Shown here: positions 37,590 through 44,168 of the stretch, one piece after another
Layout: every line of letters begins with the position of its first letter
Numbering within the stretch: position 1 is the first letter of the stretch
Assembly (NCBI GenBank): GCA_018396705.1
Contig: JAGTQZ010000007.1
Span: 1 to 54,331, forward strand
Reading direction: 5' to 3'
Length of the DNA stretch: 54,331 nucleotides
DNA from: Candidatus Bathyarchaeota archaeon
Lineage (GTDB): Archaea > Thermoproteota > Bathyarchaeia > Bathyarchaeales > Bathycorpusculaceae
Made by a program: the position numbers and the translations under genes
Notes under the pieces: model-generated
What the model was told of the DNA's origin: nothing
Seen by the model: only the letters and a program-made list of their open reading frames with translations
Databases searched by the model: none

Positions 37590-37627
37590 ATGTACATTTA
37601 TGTTCATAAAAGTTTAAATATGTTCAT
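37590..37627 (+). promoter_or_regulatory. trp promoter with three phased ATGTWCAT boxes
   Basis: ATGTACAT (37590-37597), ATGTTCAT (37600-37607) and ATGTTCAT (37620-37627) are spaced 10 and 20 bases apart, hence on one face of the helix. They flank a TATA-like TTTAAATA (37613-37620). TGTACA is the TRP-box consensus known for the TrpY repressor of Methanothermobacter. The trpE start is 52 bases downstream of the last box. A tryptophan-sensing repressor bound here would block the TATA box; no trpY gene is in the window. Confidence 0.65.
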
Positions 37628-37659
37628 TCATCATCAAACAGTCACGGGATGGGCGAGCA

Positions 37660-37692
37660 ATGAGGAATCACGTTTGGTTTGCTAACAACTAA
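37660..37692 (+). CDS. Possible ten-residue leader peptide before trpE
   Basis: ATG at 37660 opens a frame encoding MRNHVWFANN and ends at TAA (37690-37692), overlapping the TTG start of trpE. It contains one Trp codon. Attenuation by such peptides is a bacterial mechanism and no alternative hairpins are evident, so this may be chance or a short coupling ORF. Confidence 0.2.
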   Translation: MRNHVWFANN

Positions 37693-39073
37693 AAAGCTGG
37701 GCGCTAATCTTGTCAAGCTTAACTGGAGGCTTTCAGCTCTTGAGATTTTCAGCAAATTAGCGGAACAATGTGAATATGCATACATTCTGGAATCCGTTGA
37801 AGGTCCGGAAAGGCTAGCTGAATACTCGTTTGTAGGGTTTGAACCGCGTCTCACGGTTAGCGTCAAAAATGGACTTGTTGAGGTTTACGACGGGGCGAAC
37901 GATTGCAAAACGAGATACGATGTAGCTGATCCGCTTCCATTAATCAAAAACCTTGTCGGAAAATGTAACAGTGCAAACACTAATGGGTTAAGGTTTATTG
38001 GAGGAGCTGTAGGCTACTTTTCCTACGACGCAATAAGATATTGGGAGCGTTTACCTAACAAGGCTGTCGATGACTTACATTTTCCAGATGTAGACTTAGC
38101 CATATACGACGACGGTTTCCTGTTTGACCATAAGCTAGGCGAAGTCTACTACTATCATTACGGTAACAGTAGGATACATGAAATCGAAGATTCTGTTAAA
38201 AAAGAGCCTTGCATTGAACAATTCAGCTATTCAAGTCCCAAAACAAATATTGAAAAGGAAAAATTCGAGGAGCTCTTAGCCATATCTAAGGAGTACATTG
38301 CATCAGGTGATATATTCCAAGTTGTGTTGTCCCGACGTTTCGAGTTCAATTTTCATGGAAGCCTTATTCCATTCTATACGGCGCTCAGAAGAATAAACCC
38401 GTCACCATACATGTATTTCCTCAAAATGGGCAGCCGCCAAATAGTTGGTTCAAGTCCTGAAATGCTTGTGCGAGTTGAAAATGGAAGCGTTGAAACGTTT
38501 CCCATCGCTGGAACAAGGCCCCGCAAACTGGAGGATCCAAACAAAGACGAGGCTCTTGCGAGAGAGCTTAAAAGCGATCCGAAAGAGTGCGCAGAACACG
38601 TTATGCTTGTAGATCTTGCCAGAAACGATATTGGAAAAGTATGCGAGTATGGGTCGGTGCATGTTCCTGAGTTTATGGAGATCTACAAGTATAGTCATGT
38701 CCAGCATATGGTTTCAAGGGTTGTAGGCAGACTCAGGAGAGGCTTGGACTGCTATGACGCTTTAAGAGCTGTTTTCCCAGCTGGAACCGTTACTGGAGCC
38801 CCTAAAGTCAGAGCCATGGAGATAATCGAGGAACTTGAGCCTGTAAGAAGGGGACCTTACGCCGGGGCTGTTGGCTACTTCTCACGTAATGGCAATGCGG
38901 ACTTCGCCATAACCATAAGAACGCTTGTTGCATGTGAAAACCGTGCCTACATACAAGTTGGTGCGGGAATAGTTGCCGACTCAATTCCTGAAAGAGAATG
39001 GTCTGAAACTGAACATAAAGCTCAAGCCCTTCTTAAAGCCCTTAAAATAGCCTCTATGGAAGTGAGGTTATAA
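37679..39073 (+). CDS. trpE: Anthranilate synthase component I
   Basis: Converts chorismate with ammonia or glutamine nitrogen to anthranilate, the first committed step to tryptophan. The 464-residue protein keeps the N-terminal allosteric motif as YILESVEG (LLES type), so feedback inhibition by tryptophan is expected. The chorismate-binding core includes PIAGTRPRKL, LVDLARNDIGKVCEYGSV, AGTVTGAPKVRAMEIIEELE, GAVGYFS and IQVGAGIVADS. TTG is the only start after the in-frame stop at 37661-37663. Stop and trpG start overlap. Confidence 0.95.
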   Translation: MLTTKKLGANLVKLNWRLSALEIFSKLAEQCEYAYILESVEGPERLAEYSFVGFEPRLTVSVKNGLVEVYDGANDCKTRYDVADPLPLIKNLVGKCNSANTNGLRFIGGAVGYFSYDAIRYWERLPNKAVDDLHFPDVDLAIYDDGFLFDHKLGEVYYYHYGNSRIHEIEDSVKKEPCIEQFSYSSPKTNIEKEKFEELLAISKEYIASGDIFQVVLSRRFEFNFHGSLIPFYTALRRINPSPYMYFLKMGSRQIVGSSPEMLVRVENGSVETFPIAGTRPRKLEDPNKDEALARELKSDPKECAEHVMLVDLARNDIGKVCEYGSVHVPEFMEIYKYSHVQHMVSRVVGRLRRGLDCYDALRAVFPAGTVTGAPKVRAMEIIEELEPVRRGPYAGAVGYFSRNGNADFAITIRTLVACENRAYIQVGAGIVADSIPEREWSETEHKAQALLKALKIASMEVRL

Positions 39074-39654
39074 TGAAGGTTCTAATCATAGATAATTATG
39101 ATTCTTTTGTTTACAATCTCGCCCAGTACATCGGTGAATTAGGAGCCAAACCAATAGTTTACAGAAACGATCAGATCACGCTTATAAGGGCGGTCAAGCT
39201 TAAACCTGACCGAGTTATGATTTCACCTGGCCCTGGAACGCCAGAGGAACCAAAGTTCTTCGGAATTTGCTCCCAGATAATAAAGCACATGGGTCCAAAG
39301 GTTCCAACATTAGGCGTTTGCCTCGGCCATCAGGGTATTGTCTATTCTTTTGGCGGTAAAATAGTAAGGGCTAGCAGAGTAATGCACGGCAAGACAAGCC
39401 CCATAAAGCACGATGGAAAAGGCATCTTTAAAGGCGTAAAAAACCCTATTCAAGCGACGCGTTACCATTCGCTTGTAGCTGATAAAGGCAACCTACCTGA
39501 ATGTTTGTCAGTTACTGCGGTTTCGCTAGACGACGGGGAGATTATGGGTGTCCGTCATGAGCATTACCCTATTGAAGGCGTACAATTCCATCCAGAGTCA
39601 ATAATAACCGAGCATGGTAAAGCAATGCTTAAAAACTTTCTCGACGGATGGTGA
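39073..39654 (+). CDS. trpG: Anthranilate synthase component II (glutamine amidotransferase)
   Basis: Supplies ammonia from glutamine to TrpE. The 193-residue class I amidotransferase shows the nucleophile Cys in LGVCLGHQGI and the His-Glu pair in GVQFHPESIITEHG; NYDSFVYNLAQYIGELGA opens the protein. It is separate from TrpE and TrpD, unlike several bacterial fusions. Its start overlaps the trpE stop. Confidence 0.96.
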   Translation: MKVLIIDNYDSFVYNLAQYIGELGAKPIVYRNDQITLIRAVKLKPDRVMISPGPGTPEEPKFFGICSQIIKHMGPKVPTLGVCLGHQGIVYSFGGKIVRASRVMHGKTSPIKHDGKGIFKGVKNPIQATRYHSLVADKGNLPECLSVTAVSLDDGEIMGVRHEHYPIEGVQFHPESIITEHGKAMLKNFLDGW

Positions 39655-39661
39655 ACCTCTC

Positions 39662-40723
39662 ATGTTACGTGAGGTTATTGAAAAACTAGTAAACGGCAAG
39701 AGCCTGTCTTACCAAGAGGCTTACATGTCCATGACGGAAATAATGTCAGGAAAAGCCACACAAGCGCAAGTTGCAGCCTTCTTAACAGCCTTAAGAATGA
39801 AGGGTGAAACGATAGAGGAGATGGTAGCCTTTGCCTCCGCTATGAGAAGCTTTTGCTACGGAATAAAGCCCAGCGTAAACGGCCGTCTAGTAGATACTTG
39901 CGGAACGGGAGGAGATAGAATAAAAACTTTTAACATAAGCACGGCAGCCGCTTTTGTGGTGGCCGGGGCGGATGTACCAGTGGCCAAGCATGGAAACAGG
40001 TCGGTTACAAGCCGGAGTGGAAGCGCAGACGTGCTGGAATTTTTAGGTCTAAATCTTAGCGTGCCGCCTGAAACCGTGGAGGCTTCTATAAAACATGTTG
40101 GGATAGGCTTCATGTTTGCTCCGGCTTTTCATCCAGCCATGAAGAATGTTGCCACTACAAGAAAAGAGATTGGCATAAGAACAATCTTCAACGTGCTTGG
40201 ACCCCTTGCCAACCCTGCAAACGCGAACGCACAATTGGTTGGCGTTTACGATATTTATCTTGTAGAGAAAGTCGCCAAAGTTCTAAAGGAGTTAGGCCTT
40301 GAAGAGGCTATGGTGGTTCATGGGCTTGACGGGTTAGATGAGATCTCTACCGTTGGAAAAACAGCTATAGCTTGGCTTAGAGACGGTGATGTTGAAACTC
40401 TAGAGGTTACGCCTGAAATGCTGGGCGTGAAAAAGGCCAACATTGAAAAGATAGCCAGTTCTAGTCCCTCACAAAGTGCTGAAACAATTTTCAGAGTTCT
40501 ATATAATTGTCTAGGCCCGGGAGACTCTGAATGGGACATTGTAGCGGTGAATGCTGCTGCTGGAATCATCGTAGGTGGAAAAGCTGACGAATTTGCGTAT
40601 GGGTTAGAGTTGGCTCGAGAAGCCATTGAAAGTGGAGCAGCCTACAAAAAACTCAGGGAACTCGTAAAGTTTTATGGGGGCAGCATGGAAAAGCTGGAGG
40701 AGCTTGAAGCTAAATATGGTTGA
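39662..40723 (+). CDS. trpD: Anthranilate phosphoribosyltransferase
   Basis: Transfers the phosphoribosyl group of PRPP to anthranilate. The 353-residue protein has the PRPP-binding DTCGTGGDRIKTFNISTAAA, KHGNRSVTSRSGSADVLE, and FMFAPAFHPAMKNVATTRKE with GIRTIFNVLGPLANP. The ATG at 39662 is eight bases after trpG; an upstream ATG at 39614 lies inside trpG and adds unrelated residues. Confidence 0.96.
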   Translation: MLREVIEKLVNGKSLSYQEAYMSMTEIMSGKATQAQVAAFLTALRMKGETIEEMVAFASAMRSFCYGIKPSVNGRLVDTCGTGGDRIKTFNISTAAAFVVAGADVPVAKHGNRSVTSRSGSADVLEFLGLNLSVPPETVEASIKHVGIGFMFAPAFHPAMKNVATTRKEIGIRTIFNVLGPLANPANANAQLVGVYDIYLVEKVAKVLKELGLEEAMVVHGLDGLDEISTVGKTAIAWLRDGDVETLEVTPEMLGVKKANIEKIASSSPSQSAETIFRVLYNCLGPGDSEWDIVAVNAAAGIIVGGKADEFAYGLELAREAIESGAAYKKLRELVKFYGGSMEKLEELEAKYG

Positions 40724-41504
40724 CTTCCTTAAAACTCTCATAAGAGATGCACTTGAAACTGTGCGTAGCGGATACTACAGACACGCCTTAAACGAGTCTT
40801 ACGCATCTAGCCCTAAGACAAGCCTAAAAAAAGCTATAATGGAATGCCATCATGCACCTGTAATTGCTGAGATCAAACCTGAATCTCCATCCCGTGGAAA
40901 GCTGAGGCAAGTAGTTAACTCTGCTGAGATGGCAAGGTTAATCGAAGCTGGAGGAGCTGTTGGAATCTCTGTTCTAACAGAGCCAAAACACTTCAATGGC
41001 TCTTTGAAACGATTAGCTGAAGTGAAGGAAAACACGCGGCTTCCTATTCTCATGAAGGATATTGTTGTCGATCCGGTTCAAGTTGAAGCTGCTTTGAGGC
41101 TTGGCGCCGACGCTATCTTGCTTATTTACGCAGTGTTTAAAGATAACATGATTAAGTACTCGCTTGAGGAAGTTATCGATCTAGCTCACTCCTTGAACTT
41201 GGAGGTTCTTCTTGAAACCCATACACGTGGGGAATTTCGATCGGCGCTCAAAACGGAAGCAGATCTCATAGGAATAAACAATAGGAACATTAGAACATTG
41301 AAGGTTGACCTAAACACAACGAAGAGGATTTTGGACAAAGTAGACCCTAATGGAAGGATAGTTGTAAGCGAAAGCGGCGTAGAGAAAGCCGAAGACATAC
41401 GTTTTCTGTGGAAATGCGGCGCAAGAGCTTTTCTAGTAGGCTCAGCAGTCATGCTTGCAGAGGATATTCAAGGAAAAATTAGGGAGCTTGTGAATGCTAT
41501 ATGA
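40716..41504 (+). CDS. trpC: Indole-3-glycerol-phosphate synthase
   Basis: Closes the indole ring from CdRP. The 262-residue TIM barrel shows VIAEIKPESPSRGKL (catalytic Glu-Lys region), LPILMKDIVVDPVQVEAAL, LLETHTRGEF, IGINNRNIRTLKVDL and VVSESGVEKAEDI. The ATG at 40716 overlaps the end of trpD by eight bases and is preceded by a GGAGG. Confidence 0.95.
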   Translation: MVDFLKTLIRDALETVRSGYYRHALNESYASSPKTSLKKAIMECHHAPVIAEIKPESPSRGKLRQVVNSAEMARLIEAGGAVGISVLTEPKHFNGSLKRLAEVKENTRLPILMKDIVVDPVQVEAALRLGADAILLIYAVFKDNMIKYSLEEVIDLAHSLNLEVLLETHTRGEFRSALKTEADLIGINNRNIRTLKVDLNTTKRILDKVDPNGRIVVSESGVEKAEDIRFLWKCGARAFLVGSAVMLAEDIQGKIRELVNAI

Positions 41505-42175
41505 GTACTGTAAAAGTGAAAATCTGTGGCATAACCCGTGAAGAGGACTTGGAAGCCGCTTGCCGCTTCGGCGCAGACATGGTTGGCTTCGTTGTTGAAG
41601 TTCCATCATCACCGAGAAATTTAAGCATCGAGAGAGCCGAATATCTGTTCCGACTTGTACCCCACAATGTTAAAAGCGTGCTGGTAACGGTGCCATCCAG
41701 CCTAGACCAGCTTTTAGAAACTTACAAGCGAGTGAAACCGGACATAATACAGCTTCATGGCGATGGTGTCAAAGACTATGATCTTCTACGCGAAAAGCTT
41801 CCCAAGGTTTTCCTTGTTAAGGCTTTAGCGATAGGATATGATGCAGTAACAAAAGCAGTGGATCTAATGCCATTTTTTGATGGTTTCCATGCTGACACTC
41901 ACAGTGCAGGGAAGCATGGTGGAACTGGAATTGTTCACGATTGGAATTTGAGTCGACGGTTAAAGGAGGTTGTTCATCCAAAGCCTGTTATATTGGCTGG
42001 GGGGCTTAATCCATGGAATGTAAGAGACGCCATCAGAACTGTCAAGCCATACGCTGTGGATGTCTCTTCGGGCGTTGAATCAAAGCCGGGAATTAAGGAT
42101 CATTTGCTTATGGAGGCATTTATAAGAAACGCCAAGAACGAGTCTTTCAAAACTGTTAGACGTAAAGCTGTTTAG
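41501..42175 (+). CDS. trpF: Phosphoribosylanthranilate isomerase
   Basis: Amadori rearrangement of PRA to CdRP. The 224-residue TIM barrel has the catalytic Cys in KICGITREEDLEAA, DMVGFVVEVPSSPRNL, IIQLHGDG, the Asp region in FDGFHADTHSAGKHGGTG, and ILAGGLNPWNV with VDVSSGVESKPGIKD. Start overlaps the trpC stop as ATGA. Confidence 0.95.
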   Translation: MSTVKVKICGITREEDLEAACRFGADMVGFVVEVPSSPRNLSIERAEYLFRLVPHNVKSVLVTVPSSLDQLLETYKRVKPDIIQLHGDGVKDYDLLREKLPKVFLVKALAIGYDAVTKAVDLMPFFDGFHADTHSAGKHGGTGIVHDWNLSRRLKEVVHPKPVILAGGLNPWNVRDAIRTVKPYAVDVSSGVESKPGIKDHLLMEAFIRNAKNESFKTVRRKAV

Positions 42176-42178
42176 TGA

Positions 42179-43363
42179 GTGATGCTCATGGCCAAAGGCA
42201 GGTTTGGCAGATACGGCGGAATGTATGTAAGCGAAGTTCTTATGCATGCATTGTTAGAGCTTGAAGAGGCCTTTGAGCGTATATATCCAACAGAAGAGTT
42301 TCAAAGGGATTTTCATGGATTACTAAGGGATTATGGGGGGCGCCCTACACCGCTTTACTACGCAAGAAACTTCAGCAAGCATGTTGGGTTTAAGGTTTAC
42401 CTTAAACGTGAAGACTTGCTGTGCGGGGGGTCCCATAAGCTTAACAACGCGCTTGGACAAGCGTTGCTAGCAAAAAGGATGGGGAAGAAACGCCTTATCA
42501 CGGAGACGGCGGCAGGACAGCATGGATTGGCTACTGCTATGGCTGGCAATATATGCGGCCTCAAGACTGAAATATTTATGGGCGCGAAAGACATTGAACG
42601 TCAAGCTTCAAACGTTAAGAAAATGAAGCTTCTAGGCGCAACGGTCAAGCCTGTAAAAACCGGGGCTGGAGTGCTTAAGGATGCTGTTTCGGAGACGCTG
42701 CGCGAGTGGGCTGCATGCTCAAGGACAACACATTATCTTATAGGCTCAACTGTTGGGCCGCATCCCTTTCCAACAATAGTTGCAACTTTCCAGAGCGTGA
42801 TAGGCCAAGAATTAAAAAAGCAGATACTCGAAAAGGAGGGTAGGCTTCCAGACGCCATCGTTGCTTGCGGAAGCGGTGGAAGCAACGCCCTCGGAGCCTT
42901 CAAGCCATTCATAGACCACACTGGCGTGAGGTTATACTTTGTTGAGGGAGGAGGCGAACGTTTGGGGGCTGAAAACAGCGCAGCAGCGCTCCAGCTTGGC
43001 ACTCCAGGTGTATTACATGGATGCCTCTCAATCATCATGCAGGATCGTTGGGGCCAAATAAGGCCCTCCAAAACAAGAGCTGCAGGGCTAAACTATCCGG
43101 GCAGAGGCCCAGAGATAGCCCACTTATGTGAAATAGGCCGAGTGAAACCTTGTTACGCCTTAGATCGTGAAGTGTTTGAAGCAGTACGCATAATGTGTCG
43201 AACAGAGGGGTTAATTCCTGCGCTTGAAACGGCACATGCTATAGCATATGTACTAAATCATCCTGAAGAATTTAACCGAGATGATGTTGTTGTTATAAAC
43301 TTTTCCGGAAGAGGCGACAAAGATATAGAAACTATTTTGAGGTTTTTCTATGGATCTTCTTGA
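42179..43363 (+). CDS. trpB: Tryptophan synthase beta subunit (TrpB1 type)
   Basis: Condenses indole with serine. The 394-residue PLP enzyme starts near GRFGRYGGMYVSEVLMHALL, with KREDLLCGGSHKLNNALGQA carrying the PLP lysine, ITETAAGQHGLATAMA carrying the catalytic glutamate, and VACGSGGSNALGAF for the phosphate cup. It is of the TrpB1 type that partners TrpA, not the stand-alone TrpB2 type. Start is GTG 42179, ATG 42182 or ATG 42188. Overlaps trpA by 14 bases. Confidence 0.95.
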   Translation: MMLMAKGRFGRYGGMYVSEVLMHALLELEEAFERIYPTEEFQRDFHGLLRDYGGRPTPLYYARNFSKHVGFKVYLKREDLLCGGSHKLNNALGQALLAKRMGKKRLITETAAGQHGLATAMAGNICGLKTEIFMGAKDIERQASNVKKMKLLGATVKPVKTGAGVLKDAVSETLREWAACSRTTHYLIGSTVGPHPFPTIVATFQSVIGQELKKQILEKEGRLPDAIVACGSGGSNALGAFKPFIDHTGVRLYFVEGGGERLGAENSAAALQLGTPGVLHGCLSIIMQDRWGQIRPSKTRAAGLNYPGRGPEIAHLCEIGRVKPCYALDREVFEAVRIMCRTEGLIPALETAHAIAYVLNHPEEFNRDDVVVINFSGRGDKDIETILRFFYGSS

Positions 43364-44168
43364 AGCGAAATTCCAAGAACTTAAGAAGCACGGCGAAGGC
43401 GTGCACATGGCGCATGTCTACTATGGAGATCCATGCGAAGAATTTTCAATAAGGCTGGTTGAGACGCTGGTTGAGAATGGCTCCGACATTATAGAGTTTG
43501 GCATACCCTTCTCTGACCCCATAGCTGACGGCCCGATTTTCCAAGCGGCATGTGAAAGAGCGTTAAACACTGGTGTGACGCCACTCAAATGCATAAAGGC
43601 CATAAAACGGCTTAGAAAGAGCGGCATAGACACTCCGATAATTGTAACTACATATTTCAACATCCCTTATGTCATGGGATTCAACAAATTCCTAGATAAA
43701 ATCAAAAATGCTGGAGCCCAAGGCTTGTTAATTCCGGATCTCCCAATCGAAGAAGCGAACCCATACCTAGAGCTGGCAGCTAAACAAGACTTACCCCTAA
43801 TTCTTCAAGTAGCACCCACAACATCGAAGGAAAGGCTTAAAAAGATAACAGAGGCCGCAAGAGGATTCATATACCTAATAAGCTTGGAAGGTGTCACGGG
43901 CTCAAGACTAAAAGATACAGCCATAACACGTAAACTCATCAGAAACGTGAAGACTCACGCCTATGTTCCAGTCATGGTTGGATTTGGCATTTCAAAACGA
44001 GAACACGTAGAGACAATGATCACTATGGGTGCAGATGGTGTTGTAGTGGGAAGCGCCTACGCAAAACTGTACGCCGAGAGGTTGCAAAATCCCTTTGAGG
44101 CGCTGCCAAAAATAGCTGAGCTTGCAAGGGAAATAAAACAGGGATGTACAACTTATAATAGAAAGTGA
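43350..44168 (+). CDS. trpA: Tryptophan synthase alpha subunit
   Basis: Cleaves indole-3-glycerol phosphate and channels indole to TrpB. The 272-residue TIM barrel has the catalytic Glu in IIEFGIPFSDPIADGPIFQ, the catalytic Asp in GLLIPDLPIEEA, and phosphate-binding VGFGISKREHVE and GVVVGSAYAKL. The ATG lies inside trpB (overlap). Last gene of the trpEGDCFBA operon. Confidence 0.96.
   Translation: MDLLEAKFQELKKHGEGVHMAHVYYGDPCEEFSIRLVETLVENGSDIIEFGIPFSDPIADGPIFQAACERALNTGVTPLKCIKAIKRLRKSGIDTPIIVTTYFNIPYVMGFNKFLDKIKNAGAQGLLIPDLPIEEANPYLELAAKQDLPLILQVAPTTSKERLKKITEAARGFIYLISLEGVTGSRLKDTAITRKLIRNVKTHAYVPVMVGFGISKREHVETMITMGADGVVVGSAYAKLYAERLQNPFEALPKIAELAREIKQGCTTYNRK

Follow-up and report, generated by a model that had tools for sequence, protein, structure and literature searches.

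Conserved TRP boxes and a proposed tryptophan-sensing +1 frameshift at the start of trpE in Bathyarchaeia and other archaea

The trp operon of a Candidatus Bathyarchaeota archaeon, found within the 54,331-nucleotide stretch of DNA analysed here (the window), raises the question of how expression of its first gene, trpE, is controlled, both at the promoter and at the point where ribosomes enter the coding sequence. In the reading that we favour, and to which we would give a probability of roughly 0.8, the operon is under dual control, by TrpY at the level of transcription and by a tryptophan-sensing +1 frameshift during translation.

A preliminary description of the trp promoter had placed three ATGTWCAT octamers here, and these are present exactly as given: box 1, ATGTACAT, at 37590–37597, and boxes 2 and 3, both ATGTTCAT, at 37600–37607 and 37620–37627, all on the forward strand and spaced by 10 and 20 bp. 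They flank a TATA-like element, TTTAAATA; because this lies at 37613–37620 (+ strand), boxes 1 and 2 are upstream of it, with box 3 at its downstream edge. Boxes 1 and 2 together form a 16 bp dyad, TGTACA-TTTA-TGTTCA (37591–37606, + strand), which ends 6 bp 5′ of the TATA-like element and whose core, TGTACA, we take to be the TRP-box core of Methanothermobacter. The number of octamers was rejected as evidence, since the six matches in the window (2.7 expected) were equalled in 9 of 100 shuffles. Likewise, exact double boxes (TGTWCA-N4-TGTWCA, 10 bp) occur at only two sites in the 1.71-Mb genome, and those with one mismatch showed no excess over a reversed control, so genome-wide enrichment was also discarded as an argument. 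The significance of these predicted sites comes from conservation, not from counts. When the 108 trpE loci possessing the leader described below were compared, the dyad was found with at most two mismatches upstream of trpE in 51 (dinucleotide shuffles, 0.7 % per locus), 34 of which had no mismatch or one and eight of which were perfect. In most loci the dyad starts 22–25 nt 5′ of the TATA element (TTAAATA in relatives, at a fixed distance from the dyad), and the second half-site frequently reads TGTACT, TGTTCA or TGTACG. The objection that relatives might lack the boxes upstream of trpE thus does not hold for the dyad, the position and sequence of which are kept, whereas box 3 is not clearly conserved, being ATGTCCAT in the nearest relative (locus L009) and degenerate elsewhere when compared by eye.

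Two further observations concern the promoter region. A gene on the minus strand (37483 to 36554), which we take from its translation to encode an ABC-transporter ATPase, begins some 107 bp away from box 1 and runs in the opposite direction, and a protein bound at the boxes could also affect this divergent gene. At four loci of family f19 (L213, L215, L218 and L219) another conserved promoter element, approximately GGTACCGTACYWTACYGTAA, replaces the TRP dyad; since f19 is missing among the TrpY matches listed, a different regulator may act there.

The preliminary description had attributed the boxes to a TrpY-like repressor or to a convergent protein. The genome encodes one TrpY-family protein of 167 aa (G000:C3:223790-224290), with an HTH domain and a weak ACT match, which scores 196.6 bits against the NCBIfam model NF053754 (cut-off 180). 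The ACT search and the double-box search led to it independently, the latter by way of its promoter. The trpY gene and a trpB2-type gene (TIGR01415 and NF009057) are arranged divergently, with TGCACATTTTTGTACA between the two and TGCACAAAAAAGTACA immediately 3′ of the trpY TATA element. Most of 30 trpY orthologues retain the box immediately 3′ of TATA, and many also have a second one toward trpB2; retention of the former is as would be expected for an autoregulated TrpY. In view of the NF053754 score and the boxes at the trpY promoter, the first of the two proposals, a TrpY homologue, appears to hold and the second, convergence, does not.

Homology by itself is insufficient to settle regulation of trp genes, because TrpY of Thermococcus kodakarensis neither regulates trp nor binds its trp promoter (PMC6737238). 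The same observation lends some weight to the view that the boxes are bound by a regulator other than TrpY, as does genome G041, an incomplete MAG, which has the dyad and no TrpY. We nevertheless regard this as quite unlikely, since matching dyads are conserved at the trpE and trpY promoters and the TrpY-family gene is present in most relatives, as a single copy per genome in nearly all matches. Interpretation of the boxes as predicted binding sites for a TrpY-type regulator is thus supported by conservation of the dyad at trpE together with a single TrpY-family gene bearing the same dyad in its own promoter, and it is this shared dyad which appears to do most of the work in the assignment. 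As in Methanothermobacter thermautotrophicus, a TrpY-family protein is accompanied by TGTACA boxes at both the trpE and trpY promoters; here, however, trpY is located away from trpE and divergent from trpB2, and the organism belongs to another phylum, so that this part of our reading carries a known repressor system into a new phylum. In three genomes of the same genus (G001, G002 and G003) no trpE was found, trpY is kept at 90–95 % identity and the autoregulatory boxes are also kept (by eye). As trpY is retained there without trpE, it would have other targets, at least trpY itself and perhaps trpB2. A separate observation is that the TrpY protein of locus L153 starts Met-Trp (ATGTGG, L153:1291-1296), as by eye do several orthologues; a tryptophan codon at this position might slow repressor synthesis under starvation.

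The preliminary description was right about the boxes and missed what lies 40 bp downstream of them, a mini-ORF of the form ATG-AGG-AAT-CAC-GTT-TGG-...-TAA (37660–37692, + strand, frame 0) encoding MRNHVWFANN*. The trpE reading frame (37676–39073, + strand; anthranilate synthase component I, TIGR01820, by HMM) is in the +1 frame relative to this leader, its upstream in-frame stop codon (TGA, 37661–37663) falls within the leader, and we propose that it is entered by frameshifting. The ORFs that follow (39073–44168, + strand) we take, from their translations, to be trpG, trpD, trpC, trpF, trpB and trpA, HMM testing having been applied to trpE alone. The only candidate start codon in the trpE frame of the window is TTG at 37679, and there is none in L009, the TrpE of which is 70 % identical. 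A four-codon ORF, ATGGGCGAGCAATGA (MGEQ*, 37649–37663), located near the expected transcription start, has a stop codon that overlaps the leader ATG (ATGA).

Comparison of promoters first revealed that the leader belongs to a common layout, ATG-RGG-NAT-NNN-NTT-TGG, preceding trpE. A leader with trpE in the +1 frame is present at 108 of 128 distinct archaeal trpE loci, and at least 19 GTDB families of the phylum, along with Asgard archaea, share the arrangement of a start codon with a Shine–Dalgarno sequence, an internal Shine–Dalgarno sequence at a fixed distance and NTT-TGG. Judged by TrpE, the nearest named relatives are Bathyarchaeota MAGs, and leader-bearing loci include Nitrosocaldus, Caldarchaeum, Jordarchaeum and one Freyarchaeota MAG; at L235, where TrpE is distant, the leader reads MGDLVW* and the trpE frame opens at TTT. 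The tryptophan codon is codon 6 in 94 loci and codon 4, 7 or 8 in the other 14. The P-site codons are CTT (47), GTT (37), ATT (15) and TTT (9), and the occurrence of TTTGG in all 108 leaders is by construction because the leader search required it. We therefore rely on an independent test of all trpE-register pentamers in the 150 nt before the conserved domain, in which TTTGG was found in the trpE register at 110 of 128 loci, as against 1 and 4 in the other registers and 54 for the next pentamer. When 843 kb of archaeal DNA was scanned for the cassette followed by a long +1 ORF, 54 matches were obtained, 53 of them at trpE; this DNA is not an unbiased genome sample, its loci having been retrieved either as surroundings of trpE or as box matches. 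Elsewhere in the window the cassette was not found. It was not seen at trpS where an ORF was readable, a weak negative given that about half of the loci gave no ORF with a simple motif, nor by eye in trpE of the more distant families of the phylum that were read (f32, f26, f34 and others), in which trpE often closely follows another gene, nor in the bacterial trpE loci fetched, within a survey of archaea other than Euryarchaeota and of a minority of bacteria.

Conservation on this scale bears on whether the frame break is real. MAG assemblies are involved, and frame breaks are common artefacts, yet the same site recurs in at least 19 families, single-contig genomes included, with the trpE frame intact. 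Sequencing error and pseudogene formation are refuted by this recurrence, and transcriptional slippage was rejected because there is no long T run or other homopolymer, so that we consider the probability of any explanation of this kind to be negligible.

The three frames differ in their stop codons. Downstream of the tryptophan codon there are none in the trpE frame (0/3840 codons), compared with 300/3732 in the leader frame and 218/3624 in the third. Some of these codons belong to the conserved enzyme, which would be open in any case, and more can be learned from the variable sequence immediately following the shift site (offsets 0 to 14); it likewise contains no trpE-frame stop. Substitutions downstream favour third positions of the trpE frame (110/107/234). 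Upstream of the site, trpE-frame stops are common. A rival reading has trpE starting at a codon of its own, often a non-standard one (GTG, TTG or ATN), by internal initiation or by re-initiation after the leader, the latter then being an ordinary coupling or attenuating upstream ORF. Candidates do exist: TTG 37679 in the window and a GTG inside the ATGGGTGG leaders of family f19 could in principle start trpE, which counts against a frameshift, many Bathyarchaeia have an ATN two codons before TTT, and L079 and L223, which have no leader, apparently start from a third-frame TTG at the site. However, 33 loci have no ATG, GTG or TTG in the trpE frame from the upstream stop to residue 33, eight have a stop immediately 5′ of TTT, L009 has no candidate at all, and where candidates occur their positions are not conserved. 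Leader stops, moreover, lie anywhere from 0 to 45 codons past the tryptophan codon, some of them inside conserved trpE, and initiation at trpE itself would leave unexplained the invariant TTTGG, the fixed +1 frame and a GG element fixed to the shift site. We consider it distinctly improbable. Computation establishes the leader, its frame relation to trpE, the conserved cassette and the absence of trpE start codons.

The GG element forms part of the internal Shine–Dalgarno-like sequence, AGGAATC in the window (37663–37669, + strand), which occupies positions −12 to −6 from the tryptophan codon and contains an invariant G at −11. In all 14 leaders with the tryptophan codon at position 4, 7 or 8 the GG is still at −12/−11, so that its position follows the shift site rather than the start codon. 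Anti-Shine–Dalgarno pairing peaks just before the shift site, with a mean of −7.3 kcal/mol as against −5.2 kcal/mol at the initiation site. The leader start has its own signal, GGAG, GAGG or AGGA being present upstream in 73 of 108 loci (3–11 in shifted control windows).

Our working model is as follows. A TrpY-family HTH/ACT protein, to judge from its homology and the shared operator, would bind the TGTACA-N4-TGTACA dyad at the TATA element and repress transcription. Ribosomes on the mRNA would initiate at the leader ATG (37660) and, with the internal Shine–Dalgarno sequence pairing with 16S rRNA, would arrive at NTT_TGG (GTT_TGG, 37672–37677, + strand, in the window). When Trp-tRNA is ample, UGG would be decoded and termination would follow a few codons later; when it is scarce, the empty UGG A-site would allow the P-site tRNA to slip +1, from NUU to UUU (TTT 37673–37675), and trpE would be entered. 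Since re-pairing from NUU to UUU keeps the second and third base pairs, such a slip would explain why the third P-site base must be T, although re-pairing at the first position of UUU is poor for GUU and AUU, which is a point against it. The predicted trans-frame product in the window is MRNHV-GLLTTKKLG..., and its unusual N-terminus should not matter because the TrpE domain begins about 20 residues downstream.

The slip itself we infer from this arrangement, and its dependence on tryptophan from the identity of the UGG codon and the pathway concerned. A +1 frameshift that is obligatory but constitutive and does not sense tryptophan would fit the structural evidence equally well, as the internal Shine–Dalgarno sequence and the slippery NTT may suffice; in the JZ_bin_23 MAG, which has two trpE-like loci, one (L075, MGDPL*) has TAG in place of TGG at the shift site and the other (L077) has an in-frame ATG. 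We think a constitutive shift rather unlikely, given that the A-site codon is a tryptophan codon of a tryptophan-pathway gene throughout the set, that the cassette is missing from the rest of the window and that slow A-site decoding favours +1 shifts (PMC5009743). A point against the model is that the one ground for tryptophan dependence is UGG as the shift codon in trpE, in leaders found by a search that was itself conditioned on TTTGG. Tryptophan sensing remains our preferred reading, and we think it likely, though with less assurance than we attach to dual control of the operon, that it represents an ancient and widespread form of control in archaea, whereby an amino-acid pathway has its first enzyme made only via a +1 frameshift at a codon for the amino acid concerned, a natural and conserved hungry-codon frameshift serving as a metabolite sensor.

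The closest known parallel is prfB, encoding bacterial release factor 2 (PMC5009743, PMC12421855), where there is likewise a short leader frame, an internal Shine–Dalgarno sequence and a slippery NTT (CTT or TTT) followed by T, where a +1 shift is required for the main protein, and where the slow A-site codon, UGA (PMC5009743), is relieved by the product itself; prfB frameshifting is also widely conserved and has been lost several times. At trpE the main frame is +1, is open from the shift site and lacks its own start (some loci having possible ones), NTT is followed by T, with TTTGG enrichment tested independently, and the internal Shine–Dalgarno sequence is at a fixed distance. The A-site codon, however, is the sense codon UGG and not the stop codon UGA, and for this reason we regard the trpE element as a like mechanism and not as a member of the prfB family. 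Further differences are that the trpE case is archaeal, that the state sensed would be charging of tRNA-Trp, that the shift occurs 4–8 codons from the start and that the P-site codon may also be GTT or ATT. By our own reckoning of register the internal Shine–Dalgarno sequence is 3–4 nt further upstream of the P-site codon than in prfB, so that it need not push the ribosome forward.

TrpL attenuation in enteric bacteria resembles the trpE leader in that a leader peptide with a Trp codon senses Trp-tRNA ahead of trpE. Here, by contrast, there is a single tryptophan codon, and the leader consists of the 5′ end of the coding sequence of trpE, read in a different frame. Alternative hairpins with a terminator after the leader, as a TrpL-type attenuator would have, were not found, and that assignment was rejected; the 70 nt that follow the shift site are no more stably folded than shuffles (mean z −0.23), giving no sign of a 3′ RNA stimulator or attenuator hairpin, and a search of Rfam gave no match.

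Hungry-codon frameshifting (Gallant and others; PMC5009743) shares with our model amino acid starvation, an empty A-site and a +1 slip of the P-site tRNA, but its known cases are laboratory or adventitious ones, and it has for decades been known as a laboratory effect. A 2016 review knew of no hungry-codon frameshift that makes a starvation-specific protein (PMC5009743), and a 2021 review of archaeal recoding counted a single −1 frameshift case and did not mention trp (PMC8211752). Recoding reviews list nothing similar, and an open-access literature search, with subscription papers and preprints outside its scope, found no such trpE frameshift. What is new is the gene and the signal sensed, within a class of mechanism already known. 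If the model is correct, there would be a large class of archaeal recoding sites, in Bathyarchaeia, Nitrosocaldus, other lineages of Nitrososphaeria and some Asgard archaea, and a feedback loop made of mRNA, ribosome and tRNA alone. The TrpE N-termini annotated in these lineages may then be incorrect, and trpE may be labelled there as frameshifted.

Eight changes of state between presence and absence of the leader were counted on the tree. One old origin followed by several losses fits this distribution, with long branches leaving the details unsure. At most of the leaderless loci trpE has a plausible start codon in frame (L039, L069, L077, L186, L188 and L189), and at L041 the leader is fused in frame.
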